NCBI RefSeq assembly: GCF_014280235.1
Contig: NZ_CP047940.1
Coordinates: 1,302,001-1,366,000, forward strand
Length of the DNA: 64,000 bases
Source: Cyanobium sp. NS01
GTDB taxonomy: Bacteria > Cyanobacteriota > Cyanobacteriia > PCC-6307 > Cyanobiaceae
Direction: 5' to 3'
Shown here in pieces: positions 25,491 to 41,596 of the stretch; position 1 is the first letter of the stretch; each line of letters begins with the position of its first letter. The notes under the pieces are model-generated. The model was not told where the DNA came from. It made no database searches and was given only the letters and a program-made list of their open reading frames with translations. The translations under genes were made by a program, and so were the position numbers.

Positions 25491-25818
25491 CGAAGGCCAG
25501 CGTGGCGGAGCCACGACGCGACGAGCTGCTTGAGCTCTGCCGGCGAATCCAGATCGGATCGCGACGACAATCGAGGATGGCGTAGATGTCGATACTCGTC
25601 GCCTCCATCACGTCGTAAAGCGCAAAGGGAAACCGCCTGATCAACATGCGATGAAACCCATCGACCTGAAGATGAATGCCGCCATAGACAGTCAACGATT
25701 GAACATCAGCTTCGACGGCATCCAGAAAGCGATTGCCCAGCCCCGGTGCCTGAAGTTCGTAGAACAACCAACCGTTCCGTAGATCATCGGTGGCCGCATC
25801 AAGGAGCCTGATATCCAC
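25429..25818 (-). CDS. RelE/ParE family toxin with an odd C-terminal run-on
   Basis: The 129-residue frame begins MDIRLLDAATDDLRNGWLFY and contains GLGNRFLDAVEADVQSLTVY, RMLIRRFPFALYDVMEATSI and DIYAILDCRRDPIWIRRQ, a ParE-like core of about 98 aa. The last 30 residues (SSSSSRRGSATLAFGQVPP onward) are read antisense through the HNH-HIT copy D remnant. The original stop was therefore probably lost at the junction. It overlaps its antitoxin by 20 bp. Confidence 0.75.
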   Translation of the reverse strand: MDIRLLDAATDDLRNGWLFYELQAPGLGNRFLDAVEADVQSLTVYGGIHLQVDGFHRMLIRRFPFALYDVMEATSIDIYAILDCRRDPIWIRRQSSSSSSRRGSATLAFGQVPPSLNSSPPIRLSWPSP

Positions 25819-26032
25819 GAAGCTCGGCCTTGAGGTCAGTCATGGCGTCGTTCCAAGACTGAAACCGGGCGGAACCCTGCTCCAGCTGGTTGCGGCGCCG
25901 CCGTAATTCATCGCGATGCCAGGCAGGCGATACGACCTGATCGGGCGTGGCGGAGAGATCCGCCCATAGGAGTTCCATCGCCTCAAGTTTGTCTTCCAGA
26001 CTCATCTGGCCCAGGGGAAGATTCGCCGCCAT
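25799..26032 (-). CDS. Addiction module antitoxin
   Basis: The 77-residue product from ATG 26030-26032 has MAANLPLGQMSLEDKLEAME, LLWADLSATPDQVVSPAWH, DELRRRRNQLEQGSARF and QSWNDAMTDLKAELRG. This matches the small antitoxin family (M-S-L-x-E-K-L-x-x-M-E-x-L-W ... S-P-x-W-H) paired with ParE-like toxins and sometimes misnamed acyl-protein synthetase. It is encoded upstream of and overlapping the toxin. Its start faces away from HNH-HIT copy E. Confidence 0.8.
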   Translation of the reverse strand: MAANLPLGQMSLEDKLEAMELLWADLSATPDQVVSPAWHRDELRRRRNQLEQGSARFQSWNDAMTDLKAELRGYQAP

Positions 26033-26130
26033 CAGCCGAGGCCTCCAAAGGGGCATGGCATGGATTTTAGAACCAATGCAGTCAGCAAAACGAAGCAGGC
26101 CAGAAGTCCAGAGGGCTGTTGTCCTCCCAA

Positions 26131-26703
26131 CAGGTGCCACCCCCGTCACACCCCAGCCAGGATGCCCCCATGCCCCCATGCCCCCGCCCCCGCCGCAGCC
26201 CCGCCCCCGCGCAGGACGTGGCCCGCCGGATCCTGGTAAGCCCATGGTAGGCAAGGTGCTCACCGGCAACGGCATCACCCTCTGCGAGAAGGGCACTTAC
26301 GCCCTGGTGGGCGGCGAGGAGCTGAGCGACGGCGAGCGCGACCAGCTGCTGCAGCTCTGCCGCCAGCGCCTTGATGCCTTCCGCCAGCAGCGGGGTGAGG
26401 AGGTGTTCGCCCACAGGAGCCGCCACCGCACGGCGATCAGCGGCTCGATCAAAGTCCGGGTGCTCACTCGCGCCAGAGGCCGCTGCGAGTGCTGCGGAGC
26501 CCATGAGCACCAGCGGGCCTTGGAGGTGGACCACATCGTGCCCAGCAACCACGGCGGCTCTGACGACCTCAGCAACCTGCAGGCCCTCGGCTTCCACTGC
26601 AATGCCGGCAAGCGCCATCCCGCGCGAGGCGGGCTGTGTGTTCTGCACGCTGGAGGGCAGCGGCCGGGTGCTGCTGAAGAACGAGCTGAGGTTCAGAACC
26701 TGA
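26131..26703 (+). pseudogene. HNH-HIT gene repeat, copy E (HNH domain retained)
   Basis: Leader AACAGGTGCCACCC, CGTCACACCCCAGCCAGGAT, then a scrambled start. From ATG 26244 it is open for MVGKVLTGNGITLCEKGTYA, EELSDGERDQLLQLCRQRLD, RARGRCECCGAHEHQRALEV and DHIVPSNHGGSDDLSNLQAL with FHCNAGKR. The HNH zinc cysteines and the DHIVP/N/H residues are intact. The sequence then shifts frame into a short piece of the HIT part (EAGCVFCTLEGSGRVLLKNE) and ends, so the HIT catalytic block is missing. If translated, the protein would be a lone HNH domain with a nonsense tail. Confidence 0.75.
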
Positions 26704-27046
26704 CAACCAATGCCTTCCGACTCAACTCAATGAGGACGTGGCTTTCGAACAGATGGATCAGCTCCGACAGAGCACGAAGCAGCAACGCAGTGAGATCCGG
26801 GTTGCCGATGTTGCCCGTGGCGACAACCAGGAGCCTGGCTGGAGTGCCGCGCAACAGATGACTGCGAACAAAATCAGCATCCTTGCTGAAGACAACACGT
26901 TGATCACGATCCGCGATGGCGGAAATCACCCGATCGGAGCTGCGATTGCCTGCTGGTAGATCAAGGGTATGCAGAACATCGCATCCCCATGCCTCCAGAG
27001 GCCGAACAAGAGATCGAGGCAGCTGGGCATCCAGCAGGATTCTCAT
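26693..27046 (-). CDS. DUF5615 PIN-like toxin
   Basis: The 117-residue product begins MRILLDAQLPRSLVRPLEAW, then AGNRSSDRVISAIADRDQRV and VFSKDADFVRSHLL. The conserved D-x-Q/N-L, the K-D-x-D-F acidic motif and the late VATGNIGNPDL block match intact DUF5615 proteins. Its start overlaps the DUF433 stop by 4 bp. It is the only copy in the window that clearly keeps the canonical K-D-x-D-F motif. Confidence 0.85.
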   Translation of the reverse strand: MRILLDAQLPRSLVRPLEAWGCDVLHTLDLPAGNRSSDRVISAIADRDQRVVFSKDADFVRSHLLRGTPARLLVVATGNIGNPDLTALLLRALSELIHLFESHVLIELSRKALVVRF

Positions 27047-27276
27047 GCAGAGAGAACTTCAATGCGCTGAACTCGTGACAGCTGAGTTGCGTACTCCAGC
27101 ACTGCTGTGATATCGACTGACTCAAGATCAGGGTAATCGGCAAGAATTTCCGACGCACTCATTCCTGCAGACAGCAATTCAAGTATCATCTCCACAGGAT
27201 AACGCAACCCGCGGATCGTTGGCTTCCCGTGACAGATCTCAGGGTCGATGGTGATGCGACCAAGCTGGTCTGTCAT
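27043..27276 (-). CDS. DUF433 antitoxin
   Basis: The 77-residue product from ATG 27274-27276 has ITIDPEICHGKPTIRGLRYP, EMILELLSAGMSASEILADY and PDLESVDITAVLEYA, a complete DUF433 domain. It is coupled by an ATGA overlap to the DUF5615 gene downstream. Its start faces away from HNH-HIT copy F, whose leader lies about 100 bp further on. Confidence 0.87.
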   Translation of the reverse strand: MTDQLGRITIDPEICHGKPTIRGLRYPVEMILELLSAGMSASEILADYPDLESVDITAVLEYATQLSRVQRIEVLSA

Positions 27277-27373
27277 GGCGGTTCCCTGGGTTTTCCAGCC
27301 TAAGCGGCACAGAGGCTCATGACGATCGGCTGGATTTGGCGCCGACATGGGTCCTTGGTGGGTCTCCCCTTAC

Positions 27374-28332
27374 AAGTTCCACCCGCGTCACACCCCGCAC
27401 CAGCCCTCTCCTCCCAGGCCAGGATGCCCCCATGGCCTCCAGCCCCTCCGCCACCTACGAGCGCCTGCGCGACTACATCGCCGAGCGCATGCACATGAGC
27501 CCCATCGACCAACCGCTGATGCTCCTGGAACTGCTTGGCCGCCGCAGCCCGGCCCCAGCGCAGGACTTGGCCCGGCGGATCCTGGGAAACGCGCATGGTG
27601 GGCAAGGTGCTCACCGGCAATGGCATCACCGCCTACGTCAACGGCGCCTACAGCCTGATCGGCGGCGATGAGCTCAGTGACGCCGAGCGGGGCGAGCTGC
27701 AGCAGCTCTGCCGCCAGCGCCTCGATGCCTTCCGCGAGCAGCGCGGCGAGGAAGTGTTTGCCCACCGCAGCCGCCACCGCAGCCCGGGGCCGCTGCGAGT
27801 GCTGCGGTGCCCACGAGCACCAGCGGGCCCTGGAGGTGGAACCCATCATCCCCAAAAACCAGGGCGGCTCCGACGCCATCAGCAACCTGCAGGCGCTCTG
27901 CTTCCGCAGCAACGCCGGCAAGCGCGACGGCTGTTTGCCTACGCAAGAGGGCGCACCGACTTCCGCGGCCTGCAGGACACCTACGGCCACCGCGAAGCGG
28001 GCTGTGTGTTCTGCGCGCTGGAGGGCAGCGGACGGGTGCTGCTGGAGAACGAGGGGCACAGCCTGGTGATCCCGCGGCGTCATGGGGCCGACGGGCTGGA
28101 GCTGCACCAGCCGGAGTGGAACGCCGTGGTGGAGCTGCTGAAGCTGCGGCGGGAGCAGCTGAGTGCCCAGGACGCCACGATCAGCCGCTGGAATGTGGGG
28201 CTGAACTCAGGCGAAGCGGCGGGGCAGACGGTCTTTCATGCGCACTGGCATCTGATCCCGAGGCGGGAGGGGGATTGTCAGCAGCCACGGGGTGGGGTGC
28301 GGGGGGTGATCCCGTCGAGACGGGTCTACTGA
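27374..28332 (+). pseudogene. HNH-HIT fusion gene, copy F (longest copy, frameshifted)
   Basis: This copy shows the whole plan. An N-terminal region from ATG 27432 reads MASSPSATYERLRDYIAERM, MSPIDQPLMLLELLGRRSP and DLARRILGN. After a frameshift comes MVGKVLTGNGITAYVNGAYS, then the HNH part RGRCECCGAHEHQRALEVEP in a third frame. The HIT domain closes the gene with EAGCVFCALEGSGRVLLENE, GHSLVIPRRHGADGLELHQP and GQTVFHAHWHLIPRREGD (H-x-H-x-H intact). The HNH core reads VEPIIP where copy E has VDHIVP, so the catalytic His is lost. Three frames and a short deletion mark it as dead. The HIT frame alone is open from 27535 to TGA at 28330-28332. Confidence 0.78.
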
Positions 28333-30166: not shown

Positions 30167-31042
30167 TCATGCCTCCTGCGAAGCTGCTTCCGCCGCTTTT
30201 TCCTGGTGCTCCTTGAGGGTGACCCCCTTGGCGTCTTTCCATTCGGTGCGGCCATTGGCGTTGCGTGCGAGCAGCATGATCGCCGCCTGGGAGGGGGAGC
30301 TGAATTCATAGTCCTGGGCGAGGGTCAACCCGCCCGTTTCCTCCAGAAACACGCCCTGGCTCACCAGTTGTGCCCTGGCCGTCACCCAGGCGGGAGAGGC
30401 GGAGACGACGAAGTCAGTGCGGCCCCTGGCACCGCGCAGCACGGTGAAGCCTCCGGGCGACTCGAAGCCCTGTCCCGATGCATCCGGGCCCTTGAGGTGG
30501 AAGAGCCTGCGGCTCATCGCGGCCGGCTTACCCGTGGGCTGCTCAAAAGCGCGGAAGCCGAGCACTGGGCAGCAGAGAAGCAGCTCTTCGAGAAAGCCAT
30601 CGGCTTCTGCCCGGTCCATCTCCGCCAGGGTGATCGAGCGCCCCTGCACCGCGTTCTCCAGGCGGCAGCGTTTGGCCTCCTGGGCCAGACGGATCAGGCG
30701 GGCCTCCAGATGCTGGGCATGGGCCTTGTTGAGGTAGCCGTCTTTGGAGGTGAAGGCAAAGGCGGTGGTCCAGAAGTCCCTGGTCTGATGCTGCTCCAGG
30801 CGGCGGCCCAGGGGATCGGCTTCGCCGATGTAGACGCGATCGGCACCACCTTCCGGGTCTGGACCCGAGAGCACATAGACGCCCGGGCGGCTGGCCTCCG
30901 GCCGCTGGGTGAATTCCTTGAGCTGGGAGCGGGGCACAACGAAGCCGATGCCGCTCCAGTTCGTCTTCTCGACGATGCGCATGCCGTCCGGCTGACCGGA
31001 GGGCACGAACAGGCGCAGAGCGAAGGGACGGGCGGGGGTCAT
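30167..31042 (-). CDS. GIY-YIG nuclease family protein (with DUF4357-like C terminus)
   Basis: The 291-residue product starts at ATG 31040-31042. The central GIY-YIG module reads PGVYVLSGPDPEGGADRVYI, then GEADPLGRRLEQHQTRDFW, with the later helix HAQHLEARLIRLAQEAKR carrying the Glu expected for metal binding. The C-terminal region (GRTDFVVSASPAWVTARAQL to FSSPSQAAIMLLARNANGRT) resembles the DUF4357 tail found in such proteins near type I restriction genes. Its start overlaps the stop of the metallopeptidase gene by 4 bp; it is the last gene of the restriction operon. Confidence 0.75.
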   Translation of the reverse strand: MTPARPFALRLFVPSGQPDGMRIVEKTNWSGIGFVVPRSQLKEFTQRPEASRPGVYVLSGPDPEGGADRVYIGEADPLGRRLEQHQTRDFWTTAFAFTSKDGYLNKAHAQHLEARLIRLAQEAKRCRLENAVQGRSITLAEMDRAEADGFLEELLLCCPVLGFRAFEQPTGKPAAMSRRLFHLKGPDASGQGFESPGGFTVLRGARGRTDFVVSASPAWVTARAQLVSQGVFLEETGGLTLAQDYEFSSPSQAAIMLLARNANGRTEWKDAKGVTLKEHQEKAAEAASQEA

Positions 31043-31374
31043 GGGGTGGGATGGAGTGGTTGGAGCGATCCGGCATGACGCCTCAATTGTTCCTCCGCCT
31101 GTTCCCACTCACCCAGATGGGCCCGCATCAGGGATTTCCAGAGCCTGCCGTGGTTGGGAACGCTGAAGTGGAGCAGTTCGTGGACGATCACGTAGTCCCA
31201 CAGGGCCTGATCGAGCGAGAGAAGGTCGACGCTGAAGTTGAGATGGCCGTTGGTGGAGCAGGAGGCCCACTTGTGGCGCATCGGGCGCATGCCGAGCCAT
31301 ACCACCTGCACATCAAGCTTCTGCGCCCAGTCGCGCACCCGGTCCTTGAAGGCCGCTTTGGCGTTGGTGGTCAT
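31039..31374 (-). CDS. YgjP/M48-like metallopeptidase
   Basis: The 111-residue product has VIVHELLHFSVPNHGRLWKS, with the zinc site H-E-L-x-H and a downstream H, the signature of the YgjP (DUF45) family. The preceding part (MRHKWASCSTNGHLNFSVDL) is the family's W-G-S/A-C block. The domain is N-terminally shorter than free-standing members. Such genes are regular neighbours of type I restriction operons; the role there is unclear. It overlaps hsdR by 1 bp. Confidence 0.82.
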   Translation of the reverse strand: MTTNAKAAFKDRVRDWAQKLDVQVVWLGMRPMRHKWASCSTNGHLNFSVDLLSLDQALWDYVIVHELLHFSVPNHGRLWKSLMRAHLGEWEQAEEQLRRHAGSLQPLHPTP

Positions 31375-34334
31375 CAGATGCGGTCCGCCTTCTCCAGCAT
31401 GGTGAACAGCTCATCGACGATTGGTGTGACCTGCTCCAGCTCATCGCACTCGGCATAGATGGCGAAGGTGACCTGCTTACGCAGCTCACGCAGTGCGTTT
31501 TCGCTTCGCTTCCAGTTCGGGTAAGACACGAAGGCGGCCTTGATCCTGGTGCTCACGGCCTCTGGATTGTTGACCTTCGCATTGAGCAGGGAGCGGTACA
31601 CGAAGAACGTGAGCCCATCGAAGCCCTTCTCGGCTTGCTCCTGCTTGCGGGTTTCGTTCTGACGCACCTCGGCCAGCAGTGCCTCCATTGCCTCGGACGT
31701 GGAGGTCTGACGCTGCTCAAAGCTCTCCTGCACCAGCCGGGCCCGCTCGGCCATGGCGATCAGGAAGGGGTCGTCGCTGTGGTCATCGGCGAACTTCTCG
31801 ATGCTTTTGACCAGGTTGATCACTTTGCTGCCGTCACCACCCTGTTGATTCTTGATCAGTTCAATCGTGTCGCTGTTGATCAGCACGGCCTCGAGAATGC
31901 CGCGGGCCTGAAGCTGGCTCGCGCTCACGCTCTGCTGCACCAGGTCATTGGTTTTACGCTGAAACTCACGATCCACCGACACAGTGGTGCTGTAGGCCTT
32001 GCGAACGATGGAATAGGTGGCTGAGAGCGTGGCGAAATCATCCAGGAAAGGCCGCAGGAAGGCATCGGGTGAGATGATCTCGTAGAGCATCTCGATCTCC
32101 TTGTAGTCCTTGAAGAACTCCTTGCGCCGCTCGGGATCGCGAAAGTGCTGGATCAGGGTGTCGACGTCCTTGTCGTTGAAGTTCTGCTCGATCAGGCCAA
32201 TGTAGACAGGTGCCTTGCTCTCCATCTTGTTCAGGAAGAGCACTTTCAGCAGCTTGAGGTCTTTGACGATGGCGTTGATCTCGTCGCTGTCGAAGGCAAG
32301 GGCCTTTTCGAGCTTGTCGAAGATGCCCACGAAATCAAGCACGAAGCCGTGGGGCTTCACCATTTTCTGGGCCTCGTTCTCGTAGGGGCGGTTCACCCGG
32401 GCGATGGCCTGCAGCAGGGTGTGATCGCGCATCGGTTTATCGAGATACATCGCATAGAGCACGGGCGCATCGAAGCCGGTGAGTAGTTTCTCGGTGACGA
32501 TCAGGATCTTGGGCTGCTGATCGAGCTTGCCAAAGCTCTTGCGGATCTGGCGTTCCTTCTTCTGATCGAGGTGGAACTCCTTGAGCAGGGCTGAGTCGTT
32601 GTTGTTGCCGGTGTAGACGATCTCCGAAAGCTCAGTGGGCAGGCCCATCTCGGTGAACACGGCATCGAGGGCATGCTTGTAGAGGGCGCAGGCTTCACGG
32701 TCGACACCCACCAGGAAGGCCTTGTAGCCGAGGGGCTCCACGTTCTGCAGATAGTGGTTTGCCACGAAGCGTGCCACTTGCTGGATGCGGTCTTTGCCCT
32801 TGAGGAAATTCTTGAGGTTCACCGCCCGCTCAAGGATTTTGTTGAGCTCCTCAATGTCGGCCACCCCCTCGGCTTCGGCGAGGGAGAGAAACTCGGCGTC
32901 GAGCGTCTCGTGGGGCACGAGCATCTCGTTGGGGGCGAGCTGGTAGTAAAGGGGCAGGGTGGTGCCGTCTTCGATGCTGTCGGCGATGGAGTACTTGTGC
33001 AGGTAACCCTTGTCGTCTTCGCAGCCGAAAGTTTTGAAGGTGCCCTTGCCGTAGACGGTTCTGTCGACGGGGGTTCCGGTGAAGCCAATGAAGGTGGCAT
33101 TCGGCAGGCCGGCCATGAGGAAGGTGCCGAGGTCACCGCCGGTGGTGCGGTGGGCTTCGTCGATCAACACATAGATGTTGGAGCGGGTGTTGAGATCCGC
33201 CGGCATGTCGCGGAACTTGTGGATCATCGTCACGATGATGCCCCGGTAGTCATCGCGTAGGAGCTGGTTGAGGCGGGCGATGCTGCTGGCGTGTTCCAGG
33301 TTGCCCAGGCCGAGGGCTGCGAGGTTCTTGAGCATCTGATCTTCCAGCTCATTGCGGTCGATCATCAGCAGCACAGTGGGCTTGTCGGCTTCCGGTACGC
33401 GGAAGAGTCGCTCGGCGGCCTTGATCATGGTGAAGGTCTTGCCGCTGCCCTGGGTGTGCCAGATCAGGCCGCGCCGGCGATGGGGATCCAGGGCACGGCC
33501 AACGGACGCATCGACAGCTGCGGTCTGGTGCTGGCGCAGGATGTATTTGTTGAGTTCTTCGTCTTTCTCAGCAAAGACGATGTAGTGCTGCAGGAAATCG
33601 AGAAGCTGCGGGATGGCGCAAAAGCTCTTGATCTTGCCCTCCAGCTGGCCCACCTGCTCATGCTTCCAGTTGAAGAGGTTGCGCCGCACCGTGTTCCAAC
33701 TCACGCCATAGGAAAAGCCGATGGCATCGGTGGCGGTGAACAGCTGCTGGCTCACGAACAGCTCGGGCGTTTCGCGGTGGTAGCGGCGGATCTGATCGAT
33801 GCCCAGATCGATGGCTTCCTGCTTATCGGCGTTCTTGCACTCGATCACCAGCACCGGGATGCCGTTGATCAAAAAGACCACATCCTCTCGTGTGCCGTAG
33901 TGGCCGTTGTGAAAGGCCCACTCCTCGGTAACTTCATAGATGTTCTTGCGTGCCTCCGGCACCCTGTCACGGTCGTCGTAATCGATCAGGATCAGGTCGC
34001 GCTCTCGCTTCTCCTCGTGGTCGAAGAACTTGCCACGGTTGCGCAGGTGCTCCACGAACTCCCGGTTGCCGTAGATGTCGGTGTGGAGATGGCGGAACTG
34101 CCCGAGTAAGGCGCCCACCGCCTCGGCGTAGCGCGGGTTGAATTCTCGGACCTTGGCGTCGAGCAGGACGTCGAAGAAGAGGGATCGGTTCTTGGCGCGG
34201 TCGCTGTTCGGAACCTCTTGATCAAAGCCCCGTCGCTGCTCGGCTTCTTCTTGGGACACAATTGTCCAGCCGATGGCCTCAGCGTAGGCGAGGATTCGCG
34301 ATTGGACAGTTTTATGCTCTCCAGGCGTTGGCAC
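31374..34334 (-). CDS. hsdR: Type I restriction enzyme R (motor/nuclease) subunit
   Basis: The 986-residue subunit translocates and cuts unmodified DNA. The N-terminal nuclease has a PD-(D/E)xK-like site in GIPVLVIECKNADK (about residue 175). SF2 helicase motifs follow: Walker A HTQGSGKTFTMIKA (about 295), DEAHRTTGGDLGTF, GFTGTPVDRT, and the second RecA lobe with GFDAPVLYAMYLDKP and LLQAIARVNRPY. A long helical C terminus (DLVQQSVSASQLQARGILEA) contacts the methylase core. Intact over its whole length. Confidence 0.93.
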   Translation of the reverse strand: MPTPGEHKTVQSRILAYAEAIGWTIVSQEEAEQRRGFDQEVPNSDRAKNRSLFFDVLLDAKVREFNPRYAEAVGALLGQFRHLHTDIYGNREFVEHLRNRGKFFDHEEKRERDLILIDYDDRDRVPEARKNIYEVTEEWAFHNGHYGTREDVVFLINGIPVLVIECKNADKQEAIDLGIDQIRRYHRETPELFVSQQLFTATDAIGFSYGVSWNTVRRNLFNWKHEQVGQLEGKIKSFCAIPQLLDFLQHYIVFAEKDEELNKYILRQHQTAAVDASVGRALDPHRRRGLIWHTQGSGKTFTMIKAAERLFRVPEADKPTVLLMIDRNELEDQMLKNLAALGLGNLEHASSIARLNQLLRDDYRGIIVTMIHKFRDMPADLNTRSNIYVLIDEAHRTTGGDLGTFLMAGLPNATFIGFTGTPVDRTVYGKGTFKTFGCEDDKGYLHKYSIADSIEDGTTLPLYYQLAPNEMLVPHETLDAEFLSLAEAEGVADIEELNKILERAVNLKNFLKGKDRIQQVARFVANHYLQNVEPLGYKAFLVGVDREACALYKHALDAVFTEMGLPTELSEIVYTGNNNDSALLKEFHLDQKKERQIRKSFGKLDQQPKILIVTEKLLTGFDAPVLYAMYLDKPMRDHTLLQAIARVNRPYENEAQKMVKPHGFVLDFVGIFDKLEKALAFDSDEINAIVKDLKLLKVLFLNKMESKAPVYIGLIEQNFNDKDVDTLIQHFRDPERRKEFFKDYKEIEMLYEIISPDAFLRPFLDDFATLSATYSIVRKAYSTTVSVDREFQRKTNDLVQQSVSASQLQARGILEAVLINSDTIELIKNQQGGDGSKVINLVKSIEKFADDHSDDPFLIAMAERARLVQESFEQRQTSTSEAMEALLAEVRQNETRKQEQAEKGFDGLTFFVYRSLLNAKVNNPEAVSTRIKAAFVSYPNWKRSENALRELRKQVTFAIYAECDELEQVTPIVDELFTMLEKADRI

Positions 34335-34343
34335 TACAGAACT

Positions 34344-37142
34344 CTAGAAATTGTATTTCTTTCGGCGCAGTTCGAACGCGACTCTGCCACCCTCCATAGT
34401 ATTGGTAATCGCATCGCAGACAGGTTCTTCGTCTATCGCACCGCCTGCAGCTTGTCGCCCCAACACCATCTGAATCACATTCTCCGAATCCCCATTAACC
34501 GCGATATTCGCATTATGCGTCGCGAGAATTAGTTGTCTGTTGTCCTTAGCTGCGCGAATCGTTTTGATAATTTCATTAATGATCATGTTGTCAAGATCCT
34601 CTTCGGGCTGATCTATGATAAGGGGTCCATGGGTTTGATTCATAAGAATGTTCAGCAATGTCGCAGCCTGCTCACCCTGCGAAGCCTTCCTAAATTCAAT
34701 TGGGCTCCCGTCACGAATATGAAATACCTCCACGCGAGGACGCAGAATCGCCCTTAAAAGCACCGAAACTCGTTCGGTGGAGATTGCCTCCTTCAATCGT
34801 TCCATAAACTCTGGCCCAAGAGCTTCACTCAGGATCGGAGTTAATGGAGCATCACCCTTGTCTTCGGCAGCCCCTTCTTTCCACTTTAACAACTGAAGTG
34901 CCTCGTCCTGGATTTCCTTCCATTTCGCCGGCTTCTCTGGAACATTCTGAACATTTTTTAAAATTCGTTCAATACGTAATCCACGCAAACGTGGCAACTC
35001 AAATGCCTGCTGAATAGCCTCCTCAATCTCAGAGTAGTTTGGATCCTGTGCTAGACGGCCATTTGCCAATTGTGATGAAGCTTCTTCGATTGTGGCTATC
35101 TGATTTTGCACAACAGCCGAAAGCTGTACTTCCAACTCAGCTCTCTGATGCCGCAGTGCCACCAGTTCGGAGTCAGCATTCCGTAATTCGTTAACTTCAA
35201 CTTCGGCAGCCTCTAACTGCTCCTCGACTTCACTAAGCTGCCCTCTTAGTCGTTCAATGCTTTCCAGAACAGCCTCCTTACCCGCTAGAAGTTTCTTTTG
35301 CTCTTCATATTCTCTGATGTGAGCTTCCAGTATTGGCGCCCAATCCTTCTCGGCGGAGGAAATCTTCCCCAGTTCAGAGTCAAACCAAGCTGTCGCAGAC
35401 TCAAGGATGGTCTGTAGCGATCCACCTGGCAAGATCGCAGTCTGTAGCGAATTAAATACCTGCCTTAGAGTTTCGTTCTCAAGAAAGACCGGTTGTCCTG
35501 TGGTGGCTACGTTCAGTTTTGAAATCAGATCAGATAGAGAATCGCCAATTGTTTCCTTGCTGCGCTCTAGAACTCTGCGAGCTGAGGCAAGAGCCTCACC
35601 TTGGCGGGTGAAGTTCTCGTGCTCTGTGATCGCGGTCGCAGGCACTTGCCCGTCAGCAGAAAGTTGTTTCTCTAAATTCTCAATTTGTGACTTCAGTAGT
35701 AATATTTTTGTCTGGGCATGACTCTGGGCATGTTGAGAAGCCGACAGCCTCACAGCTTTCGACAGTGCATCTGTCAGAGATTGAGCATTACGCTTTAATT
35801 TCGTCTCAATCTCACTTAGCTGATGCGATGCAGGGGCGGTCACAAGACGCAATAAGCGCTCTTCAGCATCTCCTCTCGCCAGGTCAGATAGCTCCCCCTG
35901 GCGATACTGTTGAGTAGGAACAAGCATCCTGACATCTGCAACTGAGCTGAGGCTTACTGATCCTTCAGTTTCTACAGAAATGACATCCTGCCTGGCGACT
36001 GTACGGGTAAGGGTAATAGGAGTGCCGTTCAGGAGAACCTTCAGAGATATCTCACCTATTTCATGATCAAGAGTGCCTTCTAGGATTTCTTTAAGCCGCT
36101 GGGTTGCAGTAGTTTGTGTGTCTTGGTCGTCGTCGATTGCCGAACAACCCAAGGCAAAACGAACATACTCAATGAGAGTTGATTTACCAGCACCGCGCCC
36201 ACCAATTATCGAATTCATCTGCGGATTGAACAAATATGTACCATCGGTTAGATACTTTGATCCACTAACCGATAGCTCGCTAATTAGCGCTTCTGGCAAA
36301 GCTGGTTCTGAATGGCGAATACGTGAATCAGGCGCAAGCATCGCTTGGCGTAGGGATTCCGCTTTGGGAGACGCCAACTTAATCCATGTTGCATGATTGC
36401 CGATTAACCGAAAATCAGCGTGCCGAGCATCAGAGCATGAAACCACTCCTCGCTTTTCCGATGCCCATGCAGGAATTTCTCCGTCCAGGATTCTTCGATC
36501 TCCTGGTTTAAGGTCATCTGGACGGGCCTTGTCCATGTAGCCCCCGACATATGGCATGTCCTTGAAGCGTTTATGAAAGCCCCTCCTGAGGACCGTCTTG
36601 TGTCCGTCTGGTTTTACATGAGGAAGAATGATAAAGCGGCCTTGCAATTCATCGTCACCATCCAATAAAGATTGAAGTTCTTCCAGATTATGGTTAAGCA
36701 ACTCAACCTGAATGCCAAGTCTCTCTTCTGGCTTTACGTCTGCAGGAAGGCTAAGTCTTGATCTTGCTTTCTCGAATAGATTTTGGGCTAGATCTACATC
36801 GAATATGATTAATGCCTGACACGAATCCTTGCAAGTCAGTTCCATGCCGGGAAAAATCCAGAAATTGAGGTCAGGATCCGCCTCTTGCATTTCCGCAAGA
36901 GCTTGTAATGCCTCATAGACATAGACACCTTCATGATGATCAGTTATCGACACAGCTGTAAGGCCTTTCTCAATACATCTGCCGATAAATTCTTTGCAAT
37001 AATCTCGTCGCACCGTTTGCAGATCAGCGTCTGTGTCTTCGCATGACAAGTGATCCTCCGGTCTTGCTCCATCCCAACTTCCATCTCGTGGCGAGTGGAC
37101 TTGGAGATCCGTCTTTCGAAATTGCGCTCCGCGGGAACTCAT
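34344..37142 (-). CDS. PHP-domain/SMC-like ATPase (TrlF-like) in a type I restriction operon
   Basis: The 932-residue product has an N-terminal PHP-type metal domain (residues about 10-250): TDLQVHSPRDGSW, LTAVSITDHHEGVY and FWIFPGMELTC. Walker A is NSIIGGRGAGKSTLIEYVRF (about 312-330). Long coiled coils span about 420-730 (QLSEVEEQLEAAEVEVNELR). The C-terminal ABC half has signature KASQGEQAATLLNIL, Walker B GPLIIDQPEEDLDN and switch His LILATHNANI. This is an SMC/RecN-like plan with a fused phosphoesterase-type domain, consistent with what databases call TrlF-like. Substrate unknown. GC content is visibly lower than in its neighbours. It overlaps hsdS by 4 bp (ATGA) and ends 9 bp before hsdR, so it is an integral operon gene. 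Confidence 0.85.
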   Translation of the reverse strand: MSSRGAQFRKTDLQVHSPRDGSWDGARPEDHLSCEDTDADLQTVRRDYCKEFIGRCIEKGLTAVSITDHHEGVYVYEALQALAEMQEADPDLNFWIFPGMELTCKDSCQALIIFDVDLAQNLFEKARSRLSLPADVKPEERLGIQVELLNHNLEELQSLLDGDDELQGRFIILPHVKPDGHKTVLRRGFHKRFKDMPYVGGYMDKARPDDLKPGDRRILDGEIPAWASEKRGVVSCSDARHADFRLIGNHATWIKLASPKAESLRQAMLAPDSRIRHSEPALPEALISELSVSGSKYLTDGTYLFNPQMNSIIGGRGAGKSTLIEYVRFALGCSAIDDDQDTQTTATQRLKEILEGTLDHEIGEISLKVLLNGTPITLTRTVARQDVISVETEGSVSLSSVADVRMLVPTQQYRQGELSDLARGDAEERLLRLVTAPASHQLSEIETKLKRNAQSLTDALSKAVRLSASQHAQSHAQTKILLLKSQIENLEKQLSADGQVPATAITEHENFTRQGEALASARRVLERSKETIGDSLSDLISKLNVATTGQPVFLENETLRQVFNSLQTAILPGGSLQTILESATAWFDSELGKISSAEKDWAPILEAHIREYEEQKKLLAGKEAVLESIERLRGQLSEVEEQLEAAEVEVNELRNADSELVALRHQRAELEVQLSAVVQNQIATIEEASSQLANGRLAQDPNYSEIEEAIQQAFELPRLRGLRIERILKNVQNVPEKPAKWKEIQDEALQLLKWKEGAAEDKGDAPLTPILSEALGPEFMERLKEAISTERVSVLLRAILRPRVEVFHIRDGSPIEFRKASQGEQAATLLNILMNQTHGPLIIDQPEEDLDNMIINEIIKTIRAAKDNRQLILATHNANIAVNGDSENVIQMVLGRQAAGGAIDEEPVCDAITNTMEGGRVAFELRRKKYNF

Positions 37143-38431
37143 GTGTTTGCCTCAGGATTAAACATGAGAGAATTCACCCGAATCTTTGCAGCCATCAGTT
37201 CGTGAAGTAGGGTGCGGAAGAGGACTTGGAGTTGGGCCTTCTTGTTCGCTGCGACGTTGATTTTCTGCTGAGTCGCCGAAAGTGCTGAAGCGATCTCCTC
37301 CTGCTCGTCCACTGTGGGCGGAATCCCGACTTTGACGGCTCGGAGTTTCGTTGGGGAGGTGTGCTTCACCTTGGATCCAGTGGAGGTCTTTGCGACTTCA
37401 ACTCGCAGGTGTGGAAGGTTGAAGATGTGGAAGAGACACTGCTTGCTCAGGCGTTCTGTGTCCAAGTCGACGATTAGTCCGAGTCGTTGATTGTGGAGAT
37501 AGCGGTTGCCCTCCGGAACGAACGCCGCGCTGCCAAGTAGACCTGATTTTTGCTCTGTCATCGCCACCACGAGATCGTCTTTGGCCAGGACATAATCCTG
37601 GGGAATGTCGCCAGTGAAAAACTTGGTCTTCTCCCTTTGGTCGCGGAAGCCACCTTCCTCGTGAAAGTGGCCGGGGGTCATCAGAATGTAGTCGCCTGAC
37701 GGCTTGAAGAACTCGCCGTCGAAAGCGAAGCCATGCTTAACTTGGAAGAATTCGCCAAGCGGTATCACCTCCCAGCTTTCGGGGATAGGACCGATATCCG
37801 TTTGCTTCTGGGGTTCGTGGCGGATGCCTTCGGTGAAGAGCTTGTGCATGAGAGCCTTTTTCATCTCGGTGGTGGTCTGAATAATCCGCTCCTGCATTTC
37901 GATCGCCCGCTGCACTGTCGAAATGATGTGCGCGATCTTCTTCTGTTCGGGGAGTGGGGGGAGCGGGAACCAAGACGCCATTACGTCTGAATCGCGGACC
38001 GCCGGATAACTCGCACCACGCTCCAATCCTGCCATCCGAGCGTTGAAGTGGTCGGTGACCAGAAACGAGTAGAGGAAACCCGGTTCCGCCTTCGCCTTGT
38101 CGCACCGCAAAACACAGTATCCGGTGCTGGCAATTGCCCCGTCGAGTTCGGGGGGAACCAACGCAACTCGCCTTAGTGTCGGGCGAACTGTCGCAAACAG
38201 AACATCGTCAGTTTGAATTGATTTTCGTGCTCTGCTTGGAGCTTCAGCGCCAAGTGTGGGCGTAGCGCTCGTAATTTTGAAAGATGTGTTGGAGACAGCC
38301 GAGACATCGACGTATTGAAAAACCTCGTCGGGTATCTTTCGTGGATCGCGCAGCTTGGTTTTGACAATGACTCTGTTGATGGTCGAATCCGACCAAGTCT
38401 CGGGAAGCGGATAGGGTTTGCCGTCCATCAT
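37139..38431 (-). CDS. hsdS: Type I restriction enzyme specificity subunit
   Basis: The 430-residue subunit has two target-recognition domains separated by conserved helices. TRD1 runs about 1-165 (YPLPETWSDSTINRVI to WFPLPPLPEQKKIA), spacer helix HIISTVQRAIEMQERIIQ follows, then TRD2 at about 215-385 (IGPIPESWEVIPLGEFFQ to KVGIPPTVDEQEEIA) and a second helix, LQVLFRTLLHELMAAKI. It sets the bipartite DNA target for HsdM and HsdR. The recognition sequence cannot be read from this. It overlaps hsdM by 4 bp upstream and the PHP-ATPase by 4 bp downstream. Confidence 0.92.
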   Translation of the reverse strand: MMDGKPYPLPETWSDSTINRVIVKTKLRDPRKIPDEVFQYVDVSAVSNTSFKITSATPTLGAEAPSRARKSIQTDDVLFATVRPTLRRVALVPPELDGAIASTGYCVLRCDKAKAEPGFLYSFLVTDHFNARMAGLERGASYPAVRDSDVMASWFPLPPLPEQKKIAHIISTVQRAIEMQERIIQTTTEMKKALMHKLFTEGIRHEPQKQTDIGPIPESWEVIPLGEFFQVKHGFAFDGEFFKPSGDYILMTPGHFHEEGGFRDQREKTKFFTGDIPQDYVLAKDDLVVAMTEQKSGLLGSAAFVPEGNRYLHNQRLGLIVDLDTERLSKQCLFHIFNLPHLRVEVAKTSTGSKVKHTSPTKLRAVKVGIPPTVDEQEEIASALSATQQKINVAANKKAQLQVLFRTLLHELMAAKIRVNSLMFNPEANT

Positions 38432-39345
38432 ATTCCGATTTTCTCCAGAATTTCCTTCAGCGCCTTGTCCGTGTCGCGCGCCTCGGCTTCGATATCATCC
38501 AGCTCCTCAACGATCTCCGAGATGGGCCGGTAGGTTTCGGCGTCGCTGGTGTGAATGAAACGGCTTGGGGAAATGTTGTAGTCGTTCTTCTTCAGCTCGT
38601 CATGCTCCACGATGCGGCTGAGTTTCTCCTCCTCCTGCCAGCTGATCAGGGTGTCGGCAATTCGCTGGATGCCACCCTCAGGGATGAAATTCTTGGGATC
38701 CCCCTTTTCGAACATCTTGCTGGCGTTCACCAGGAACACCTTGCCCTGGCGCTCCGTTTCCTTGGCCTTGTTCAGGAACAGCACGATGCCCGGAGCCGTG
38801 GTGTTGTAGAAGAGGTTTTCAGGCAGGTAGAGCACGCTCTCAATCACGTCGTTCTCCACGAACCACTGGCGCACAGTCTTTTCCTTGTTGGAGCCCGCAT
38901 TGCCCGAGCCGCGGGAGGCGGCGCCGGTGTCGAGCACCACGGCGGCGCGGCCGTTGGCCTTGAGGCTGGCGTGCATGTGCTGCACCCAACCCCAGTCCGC
39001 CGACGACTTTCCCGGGAACCCGGCCCCCGGTGGAAAGCGGTCGAATTCGTCGCTGTCATAGTCGGCCTCCGTGAACCAGTCCTGGTTCCACATCGGATTG
39101 GCCACAACGCGATCGAACGTGCGCAGCTTGCCTGCCTGGTTGCGGAACTTCGGGTTCTTGAATGTGTCGCCAATCTCGATCTGACCCTCCATGTCATGGA
39201 TGATCATGTTCATGTTGGCCATCGCCCAGGTTTCGGGCACATACTCCTGGCCGAACAATTTCAGTGGTGCAATGGCGGCTCCGTTCGAGCACCGCACGCT
39301 CTCTTCCATGGCGATCTCGCATTTCACCAGCAGGCCGCCGGACCC
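38428..39345 (-). pseudogene. hsdM: Type I methyltransferase subunit, 3' part (split by IS)
   Basis: The frame continues from the IS junction as GLLVKCEIAMEE after CCGSG, then VVANPMWNQDWFTEADYDSD (the N-P-P-F-like motif IV, here NPMW) and VVLDTGAASRGSGNAGSNKE. HsdM-typical blocks FLNKAKETERQGKVFLVNAS and YNISPSRFIHTSD and the helical C terminus end at 38428. A short ATG-containing frame formed by IS sequence could start upstream, but the N-terminal half needed for folding is on the other side of the element. Confidence 0.88.
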
Positions 39346-39355
39346 GCAGCAGGGG
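39346..39355. repeat. Left target-site duplication of the IS
   Basis: GCAGCAGGGG at this place is repeated exactly at 40615-40624 on the other side of the element. In hsdM it encodes the DPCCG methylase motif region. Confidence 0.9.
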
Positions 39356-40614
39356 CAGGGTCTATTAGAAGTCACCCTGAGGGTCGTTCTTCCGCCGGTT
39401 CCCGCCACCCCAGCAGTCTGAGCAGTCCCTTGATGTCGTGAGCCAGGGCGGCGATGCCCTCGGTGATCGACCAGATCCCATCGAGCCGCAGGGCATTGAT
39501 CGCCAGGCTGCGGAGGGTGGCCAGGATCTGGACGCCGTTGTCCTCCCGGTAGCGGTGGGCGTCTTCCCTTAGCGGCACGTCGCGCACCCAGTGCCAGCTG
39601 TTCTCGATTGACCAGCGGTCTCTGACGTGCCGCAACAGGGCCATGGCTCCGGTCCGCAGACTTGAGACGTAGTAACGGGTCTCGTCTGTCGCCTTGCCAT
39701 CACGGATGCCATGGCTGCGCACGGCGATGATTGTCGCGCTGCCCGGCCACTGCTCCACCACCCACTCCGGCGCAGGCATCGCCCGCAGGGTCCAGGTGAT
39801 GTCACGGCCCCGTTTCAGCTCCCGTCTGCTGGTGCGCCACGGGATTCGCCGGCCATAGGTGAGCCGGTCTCTGATCAGCCGAAACCCCTTGCGGCGGCTG
39901 TGTTTGACGGCGATCAGGAAGTCGGCGCCGCGCTGGGCGAGGTAGAGGAAAAAGGGCGGTTGGCATGCAGCGCGTCGGCCTGCACCAGCACCCCGTCGAG
40001 CTCGACGGCCTCCAGCAGCTGGCGCAGCGCCTGGATCTCGCCACTGGCATCGGTGGCGTAGGTGGTCTGGGCGATTGCCACGCCCAGCGATTGGGAGTAG
40101 AGGCTCACCTGGGCAATGAACTTCGCTGCGCCGGAGGCGGTTTCATCGATGGAGCCCCGCAGCGTCTTGCCGTCACACACCAGGGTGTCGAGCTCCTCGG
40201 CCACGCCCGTCTGGGCCGCCATCCAGTCGCGGAGCAGGGTTTCAAAGCCCGCCACATCCAGCTGGGCCAGCAGCAACCGGAAGGTCGAATCCGACGGCGA
40301 CTTGCCGAAATCAGTACCCAGCAGTTCGTTGAGCGTCTGGCGATGCCGTTTGGCAAAGCGCTCCATCCCCACCAGCGAGCCCTGGCCGCTGAGGATCGCG
40401 AGGATCGCCACCAGCAGCATCCACCACTGGGGGAAGCGGATGCCACGTCGCATGCGGCAGTCCGGCAGCGCCTGGAGAAAACTGATCAGATCGCCTGCTG
40501 CAGCAGGCGTGGTGGCGGGCTCAGAGGCCAAGGGTCAAGAGCGGGTCCCGCGCACGACACCGTAGGCGGGAGGCCCCGGCCAGGGCTATTGAGACAGACT
40601 TCTAATAGGCCCTG
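39356..40614 (-). mobile_element. ISAs1-family-type insertion sequence, 1259 bp, inside hsdM
   Basis: The ends form inverted repeats: left CAGGGTCTATTAGAAGTC (39356-39373), right end reversed CAGGGCCTATTAGAAGTC (40597-40614), with one mismatch in 18. A 10-bp duplication GCAGCAGGGG flanks it, within the 8-10 bp range known for ISAs1 elements. IS plus one repeat is 1269 bp, a multiple of three, and both hsdM halves are in the same frame, so precise excision would restore the gene. The transposase is read on the minus strand, as is hsdM. Confidence 0.93.
39372..40531 (-). pseudogene. ISAs1-type DDE transposase, frameshifted (or read by -1 frameshifting)
   Basis: The first frame (40531 down to about 39940) gives DLISFLQALPDCRMRRGIRF, HRQTLNELLGTDFGKSPSDS, TLVCDGKTLRGSIDETASGA and VQADALHANRPF; the D-G-K-T-L-R-G catalytic block is clear. 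The second frame continues FLIAVKHSRRKGFRLIRDRL, RDRWSIENSWHWVRDVPLRE and DAHRYREDNGVQILATLRSL with the catalytic Glu. The two halves meet at a run of five T in CGC CCT TTT TCC; a -1 shift there joins them into about 385 aa, normal for the family. Most ISAs1 transposases are single frames, so a one-base loss is the simpler view. Confidence 0.85.
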
Positions 40615-40624
40615 GCAGCAGGGG
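40615..40624. repeat. Right target-site duplication of the IS
   Basis: Second exact copy of GCAGCAGGGG, flanking the right inverted repeat. Confidence 0.9.
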
Positions 40625-41508
40625 TCGTAGATCTCCATGCCGGGCTCCGGCTGCAGCACCTTGCTCATGATGCTGGCCACCTCGGGCGGTGTGTAGAACT
40701 CACCGGCGCTCTGGCCGCTGCCCTCGGCGAACTTGCGGATCAGGTATTCGTAGCTCTTGCCGATGATGTCGGCCTCCACGTCGCTCAGACCCAGGCGCTT
40801 GGTGCTGATCGCCTCGATCAGGTTGGAGAGGCGGTCGTCGTCGAGGTCGCGCTGGCCGTGCGTGGTGGCGTTGAAGTCCACCCGGTCGATGATGCCCTGC
40901 AGCAGCGGGTTCTCCCGGGCAATGGCCCGCATCTGGGTGGTGACCCCTTCGCCGATCTTGTCCGACAGCTTGCGGATCACGCTCCACACCGGCTGCTCCG
41001 GGTCGCCTGGCACCAGCGGCAGGTAGAAGCGCACCAGCTTGTGATCGGCGGCCACCAGTTGGAAGGCCTTCTGACGCGAACCCACCTCGGCGGCGATGCG
41101 GTTCAGCTCGTCGTCGAACACATCGCAGAGCCGCTTCGTGAAGATCAGCGGCAAGATGTAGTCCTTGTATTTCGGCGCGTCCTTGGCGCCGCGGATCGAG
41201 CAGGCCGCGTCCCAGATCCAGGATTCGAGGGATTTGTCTTTGGGGGTGCCGTTGCCGGCGGCTTTCCCATGGCGGGGGGCTTTGGCTTGCGTGGCCTGTT
41301 GCACGACCTGCTCGGCGTCTGCAAGGAACACCGTGTCGCTGCGGCCCTGGCCGCGTTTCACGATCCCCTTGGCCACCAGTGCCGCCTTCACCTCCTCGTA
41401 GAGGGGCTCCTCCCAGCCGAGGGCTTCGCGCAGGGCAGGGTTCTTGGCGGGGCTACCGGCCTCTTCCACGGCTTCGAGGAAGTCGTCCAGGTGCTCCTGA
41501 TCGGGCAT
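40615..41508 (-). pseudogene. hsdM: Type I methyltransferase subunit, 5' part (split by IS)
   Basis: From ATG 41506-41508 (MPDQEHLDDFLEAVEEAG) the first 95 residues are an extra helical region ending in a linker. The HsdM N-terminal domain follows (SWIWDAACSIRGAKDAPKYK, YILPLIFTKRLCDVFDDELN) and the methylase entry FAEGSGQSAGEFYTPPEVAS with SAM motif I, IYDPCC, cut by the IS. With the 3' part it makes about 603 aa, longer than typical because of the N-terminal extension. The N6-adenine methylase made by the operon should be absent while the IS is in place. Confidence 0.88.
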
Positions 41509-41596
41509 CGAGGGATCAGGTCGGTCCACGCTGGGGGAAGTCTGCCTGCGGTGGCGCGGTTTTGGGTTGAATTCAGGCAAGTTCTGGGCGACACAG

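Follow-up and report, generated by a model that had tools for sequence, protein, structure and literature searches.

TrlF proteins are widespread and often encoded beside restriction or BREX genes, and no published mechanism for them was found in the literature searched. The family takes its name from a temperature restriction locus of Photorhabdus, the trl locus, for which a role in temperature tolerance and not against phages was reported, and in which none of the selected mutations fell in trlF (PMC7554251). A second description comes from the RptR paper, in which four gammaproteobacteria have a gene pair for an AAA-like ATPase and an RNA-binding protein inserted after hsdS and before hsdR (PMC12255303). 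Considering this description together with the RefSeq names 'TrlF family AAA-like ATPase' and 'RNA-binding domain-containing protein', the pair is very probably TrlF with TrlG, and the Photorhabdus TrlR and RptR, both of 79 aa, may be one and the same regulator.

Two other kinds of system are relevant. A 2026 review presents Ppl as an ssDNA exonuclease of 3'-5' polarity, encoded by a single gene and switched on by NTP depletion and 3'-OH ends (PMC12904381). Like TrlF, Ppl combines an N-terminal PHP domain with a C-terminal SMC-like NTPase in about 900 aa, carries a DQPED Walker B and can be aligned with TrlF from end to end; identity in this alignment is 22%, and Ppl keeps the HxH...DxH metal site whereas TrlF has QxH...DxR. 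The gene of the latent anticodon nuclease PrrC lies within a type IC RM operon, and the protein senses inhibition of the enzyme (PMC3874165, PMC12707154). Both PrrC in EcoprrI and DarTG2 in the EPEC RRDM island are accessory effectors encoded within a type I operon, as TrlF would be here, although their domains (anticodon nuclease and DNA ADP-ribosylation toxin-antitoxin, respectively) are unrelated to it. The hsdS-hsdR gap is already known as a variable slot, occupied by PrrC, DarTG2 or the ATPase/RNA-binding pair.

Here we analyzed a window of 64,000 nucleotides from Cyanobium sp. NS01, whose genome is 2.75 Mb in a single contig. Photosystem II reaction-centre and phycobilisome proteins are encoded in this genome, as expected for a cyanobacterium. 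The window encodes a new, divergent cyanobacterial TrlF; both its family and the kind of slot that it occupies were known before, and trlF is a poorly understood gene with a presumed anti-phage role. It matches the family over its full length and has the same PHP plus SMC-like ATPase architecture as members from E. coli, plasmids and Vibrio, whose genes neighbor type I, type III or BREX systems; it differs in standing alone between hsdS and hsdR, with no visible TrlG (AlbA_2) or TrlR partner. The slot is the one described for the gammaproteobacterial pair, but TrlF is here alone, in a cyanobacterial host and next to a broken hsdM. Our analysis adds a quantified link to RM and BREX genes, evidence for repeated recruitment into different modification systems, the alteration of the PHP site and, in this strain, a partner RM system that was lost naturally.

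The trlF gene and its interrupted type I operon

A sequence-only reading of the window had placed this gene in an operon hsdM-hsdS-ATPase-hsdR, with a 4-bp overlap with hsdS and a 9-bp gap before hsdR. Both junctions were confirmed: the start of trlF and the end of hsdS have 37139-37142 (ATGA) in common, and 9 bp separate the trlF stop from the GTG of hsdR. The order hsdS-trlF-hsdR also stood, while hsdM turned out to be not intact but two fragments split by an ISAs1 element (Table 1).

Table 1. Features of trlF and of the surrounding operon in the window.
Feature	Coordinates	Strand	Description and basis
hsdM 5' fragment	40615..41580	-	HsdM_N and start of N6_Mtase (PF12161, PF02384); stops inside motif I DPCC
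Target-site duplication CCCCTGCTGC, left copy	40615..40624		
ISAs1-family element	39356..40614	-	1259 bp; NF033564
Target-site duplication CCCCTGCTGC, right copy	39346..39355		
hsdM 3' fragment	38428..39355	-	PF02384, 234.6 bits; picks up at motif I CCGSGG; 4-bp overlap with hsdS
hsdS	37139..38431	-	specificity subunit, 430 aa; PF01420, 87.3 bits
trlF	34344..37142	-	intact ORF of 932 aa coding for a PHP/SMC-like ATPase protein of the TrlF family
PHP domain (predicted), residues 1-280	36303..37142	-	Foldseek; count of motifs in 57 homologues
Walker A GGRGAGKS, residues 314-321	36180..36203	-	(near-)invariant in 57 homologues, except position 318
Coiled-coil/helical insertion (predicted), residues 426-688	35079..35867	-	AF2 secondary structure
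Walker B LIIDQPE, residues 841-847	34602..34622	-	DQPE invariant in 57 homologues
hsdR	31374..34334	-	restriction/translocase subunit, 986 aa, GTG start; TIGR00348, 467.4 bits
YgjP-like metallopeptidase	31039..31374	-	111 aa; PF01863, 93.0 bits
DUF4357 protein	30167..31108	-	start uncertain; PF14267; the GIY-YIG gene of the sequence-only reading

The proposed TrlF assignment is correct, as NF045780 (TrlF family AAA-like ATPase) was matched at 440.7 bits over profile positions 1-944 of 944, above its curated cut-off of 350 bits. Ppl (NF042955, 161.9 bits, cut-off 1000) and Spaf_1101 (158.9 bits, cut-off 475) are, judging from these scores, distant relatives; membership of the Ppl family was ruled out both by the score and by the incomplete HxH and DxH motifs of TrlF. 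MADS was rejected as well, considering that the Mad3 match (51.5 bits) was confined to the ATPase part and that Mad5 (38.8) and Mad2 (25.1) stayed far below their cut-offs of 400 and 720.

In agreement with the sequence-only reading, trlF is more AT-rich than its neighbors: its GC content is 48.0% (GC3 0.44), whereas hsdS has 54.3%, hsdR 58.9% and the whole window 66.0%. As the PHP part and the ATPase part are AT-rich to the same degree, the whole gene probably arrived as one piece. The idea that it was acquired separately is supported by this composition and by the absence of trlF from the closest relatives of the same RM operon.

The ISAs1 element has the inverted repeats CAGGG(C/T)CTATTAGAAGTC and is surrounded by a perfect 10-bp duplication, CCCCTGCTGC. 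It splits the catalytic motif I DPCCGSGG of hsdM, and its removal in silico gives a single hsdM frame running through motif I (YDPCCGSGGLL). Five copies at 100% were found in the genome with a 1251-bp probe, so the insertion in hsdM looks recent. We also observed that all five copies share one transposase frame break, with ORFs in two frames, suggesting programmed frameshifting or mobilization in trans.

The type I enzyme is HsdR2M2S1, and without HsdM neither modification nor restriction is expected. In this strain HsdS and HsdR are intact and HsdM is broken, leaving the functional set incomplete; because motif I is interrupted by the ISAs1 element, the type I restriction system is probably inactive, and the earlier picture of a working restriction operon was not supported. 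Other N6-methylases are encoded in the genome and cross-complementation of HsdM by one of them is possible, though nothing points to it. A scan of the IS/hsdM region gave no match to a sigma-70-like promoter, a result of little weight. The upstream IS may silence trlF, or trlF may act alone in this strain.

PHP domain and ATPase of TrlF

Profile searches for the two proposed domains found SMC_N, AAA_21 and AAA_23 in Pfam, while PHP stayed below its threshold (20.9 against a cut-off of 26.4) and was recognized as a fold by Foldseek. An AF2 model of the whole protein, built with 57 aligned homologues as input, had a pLDDT of 88.5 and a pTM of 0.77. A sequence search of the PDB returned no solved TrlF or Ppl structure, the only matches being SMC/Rad50-type heads and coiled coils.

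From profiles and predicted structure, which agree with the SMC-like ATPase with coiled coils of the sequence-only reading, the C-terminal part is predicted to be an SMC/Rad50-like ABC ATPase. Walker A (GGRGxGKS), the signature, Walker B (DQPE) and the H-loop (HNxN) are all present and invariant or nearly so among the 57 homologues. Walker B is flanked by the signature ASQGEQA (820-826) and by the H-loop THNAN (875-879), in which S821, G823, H876 and N879 show no variation. The best PDB matches of the whole model were mostly SMC, MukB, Rad50, Jet, Lamassu and RecN heads. TrlF shares the ATPase head and coiled-coil fold of Lamassu, Wadjet/Jet, Rad50 and RecN but is a single polypeptide with a PHP domain, and TM-scores to these heads were low (0.18-0.34 over the whole query).

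The PHP part, modeled alone, reached a pLDDT of 92.9. Its top PDB match in Foldseek was EndoQ (5zb8, E 3.9e-8); RNase AM, the PHP domain of Pol III alpha and putative PHP phosphoesterases were also matched, so that the N-terminal part of TrlF is predicted to adopt an EndoQ/Pol III-like PHP fold. The PHP phosphoesterase-like domain that had been proposed therefore holds as a fold, with the signatures LQVHSPRD, SITDHHEG and PGMEL all present; caution is needed for its metal site, which reads Q14xH16, D68-H69, E101, H175 and D238xR240, thus QxH...DxR and not HxH...DxH. In the alignment with E. coli Ppl, the QVH and DAR of our TrlF stand against HNH and DAH. This substitution is shared by most of the aligned proteins: 39 of the 57 homologues have QxH and DxR, and only 2 (L130 and L143) keep both HxH and DxH. 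H69, E101 and D238 do not vary in any of the 57, which suggests that the site is retained for some role. The PHP site of TrlF is thus constrained yet atypical for a PHP nuclease, and nuclease activity is uncertain because the metal site is altered. Its consistent alteration raises the question whether TrlF is a nuclease at all.

Restriction and BREX partners of trlF, and its slot in type I operons

We scanned 84,980 species genomes and kept the best 80 relatives with flanks of up to 10 kb; 79 of these loci had a recognizable gene, and 152 genes from the same loci served as controls. In 19 of the 79 loci, trlF shared its operon with a gene of a type I, type III, type IIG or BREX system, which was the case for none of the 152 controls (Fisher 2.8e-10). 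RM genes were recognized with our own profiles, making this linkage a lower bound, and the sample consists of the closest relatives, with some type III-linked members already inside the query alignment. In about three quarters of the sampled homologues, no recognized RM gene was found in the operon. Independent Pfam counts gave a similar picture: the nearest upstream neighbors (n = 73) included ResIII (7), N6_N4_Mtase (3), Eco57I (2) and HSDR_N (2), the downstream neighbors (n = 68) included AlbA_2 (10), and the families listed for 65 control genes included no RM family. A TrlG (AlbA_2) partner accompanies TrlF in 10 of the 79 relatives, and none was found beside trlF in the window. The earlier remark that TrlF-like proteins occur near restriction genes is thus borne out, the homologues not being scattered without a link to such loci. 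In these gene neighborhoods the TrlF-RM/BREX link is genuine yet loose, and it arose repeatedly.

The arrangements are diverse. In type I loci, trlF is nested between hsdM and hsdS (L074), follows hsdR (L082 and L123) or follows hsdS at a contig end (L113), and L093 and possibly L109 are also type I-linked. In two type III loci (L143 and L132) it is nested between mod and res, and it is adjacent to BREX in L061, L118, E. coli cq9 and Vibrio. Annotated records add type III-linked genes in Sphingobium and E. coli 0H26 and a type I-linked one in E. coli ET915. Separately, plasmid Spl of Novosphingobium sp. PP1Y (L054, 3049-8799) contains a 1916-aa ORF joining a type III Res (86% to L058) to TrlF (67%), which is not annotated in PLSDB and may reflect a small frameshift or a real fusion. 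We set it aside as Rosetta-stone evidence, as the ORF is unannotated and due to a small change at the end of res; a long ORF in L127 was discarded as a similar fusion because its N-terminal part is non-homologous.

A tree of 71 rows, made with a quick method, ruled out a single origin of type I-linked TrlF, as the type I label required 5 changes for 5 rows, all five forced by starred branches, which also forced at least 8 changes of the type III label. Near-sister pairs include L082 (type I) with L083 (type III) and L123 (type I) with L061 (BREX). Considering the quick method and the long branch of the window TrlF (1.37), its exact placement is unsure.

This exchange is also visible at the DNA level in E. 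coli. ET915 (type I) and ET896 (BREX) have in common a 2932-bp block at 93.5% identity, which runs from about 220 bp before trlF to about 50 bp after it and holds trlF and little else; 0H26 (type III) has the trlF block at 87%. ET245 lacks trlF but has the type I operon of ET915, with 95.8% identity over 6.5 kb that stops at the last base of hsdR, where another nuclease gene takes the place of trlF. A block shared across type I, BREX and type III systems shows that TrlF is mobile by itself and accepts several RM types.

The slot between hsdS and hsdR was examined separately. The sequence-only reading had proposed surveying how often the gene lies there; we searched for HsdR relatives in 292 genomes of the phylum and inspected 23 such operons, and TrlF filled the slot in none of the others. 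About half of the 23 had at least one gene in the gap and about half had none, the occupants being PIN, HepT, TrlG-like, DUF1828 and unknown proteins. The closest operon (G274; HsdM 63-73%, HsdR 64%, same YgjP gene downstream) has a PIN-domain gene at this position, G310 (HsdR 62-65%) an AlbA_2/HATPase protein of TrlG type, and G260 an empty gap. Among other cyanobacterial type I operons (L187, L174, L176, L184, L195, L191 and L196), we noticed PIN, HepT, DUF1828 and DUF559 genes in the gaps, and the hsdS-hsdR or hsdM-hsdS gaps of these operons look like an accessory toxin/nuclease slot. A conserved cyanobacterial hsdS-trlF-hsdR type was not supported, only 2 of 149 relatives passing the TrlF cut-off, own genome included, and a tblastn of HsdR against plasmids at 1e-100 gave no match. 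The TrlF homologues of two further genomes from the family of this strain (L033, 10866-13688; L034, 7198-10106) are broken, the defects being an in-frame TGA and a frame break, suggesting that TrlF decays frequently.

Possible roles of TrlF and the neighborhood of the operon

The explanation that we favor, and to which we would give an even chance, is that trlF is a self-contained, Ppl-like accessory effector cassette in the hsdS-hsdR slot, adding a second layer that complements restriction. TrlF would be no subunit of HsdRMS and would need no particular RM type. The cassette would have entered the slot of the type I operon and be translated together with it; its SMC/Rad50-like ATPase would engage invader DNA, probably at ends or at repair or replication intermediates, under a nucleotide control that might resemble that of Ppl, and the PHP domain would be either the effector or a binding site for nucleotides or DNA ends. 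The protein would have an anti-phage function. As Ppl is distant and has an intact HxH...DxH, absent from TrlF, the catalytic analogy may fail. The Photorhabdus locus, with its temperature role and no selected mutation in trlF, also speaks against this reading, as do the roughly three quarters of sampled homologues in whose operon no RM gene was recognized. A second effector, as first suggested by the sequence-only reading, is kept as the best general description. A broader version, tentative and in our view rather unlikely, makes TrlF a general second-layer module reading a signal common to type I, III, IIG and BREX systems, be it DNA ends, a stalled translocation or a first layer that has failed, and therefore compatible with any of these systems, with QxH...DxR as a new functional state of the PHP fold.

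TrlF could instead guard the restriction system as PrrC does in EcoprrI, silenced by intact HsdRMS and freed as a toxin once a phage inhibits restriction. This is unlikely: prrC occupies the same kind of slot in its type IC operon (PMC3874165, PMC12707154), and likely toxins or RNases (PIN, HepT) also fill the slot in relatives, but the broken hsdM leaves no silencing complex here while trlF is intact in the cell, unless the IS is polar. Moreover, TrlFs that are sisters in the tree are partnered with type I, type III and BREX systems, a poor fit with sequestration by one enzyme, and the Pfam scan found no PrrC/anticodon-nuclease domain in TrlF. We consider still more doubtful the earlier suggestion of a dedicated end-sensor or second nuclease for DNA ends made by HsdR, since TrlF changes partners among type I, type III and BREX systems, and no RM gene was recognized in the operon for roughly three quarters of the homologues sampled. 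The tight 4-bp and 9-bp junctions in the operon, the SMC/Rad50-like head and the nesting between mod and res in two type III loci would suit such a sensor; the TrlFs of L061, L118 and E. coli cq9, however, adjoin BREX, which has no HsdR-type nuclease, and HsdR is probably inactive here without HsdM. The least probable of these possibilities, and to us a clearly improbable one, is that TrlF is an ATPase for regulation or stress whose PHP domain has lost catalysis, and that it clusters only passively with defense genes. It could account for the QxH...DxR site conserved in 39 of 57 homologues and for the influence of the trl locus on Photorhabdus temperature tolerance (PMC7554251), but the invariant H69, E101 and D238, the strong RM/BREX enrichment and the variable-slot behavior, typical of defense cargo, argue against it.

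The broken hsdM of this strain is a natural experiment on whether an effector encoded inside an RM operon needs that RM system. As in E. coli the same trlF DNA lies beside type I, BREX and type III systems, partner dependence is directly testable with ET915, ET245 and ET896. The natural matched set comprises ET896 (L197, BREX), 0H26 (L198, type III) and ET915 (L202, type I), with ET245 (L203) as the same type I system without trlF.

Around the operon, the YgjP-like gene adjoins hsdR also in the close relatives L174-L176. The DUF4357 protein encoded after ygjP matches the PADLOC phage-defense candidate PDC-S14 at 302.1 bits. Beside the operon, positions 25800-28332 of the window contain repeated HNH/HIT-domain gene fragments and toxin-antitoxin-like genes, and this region looks like a decaying defense island.
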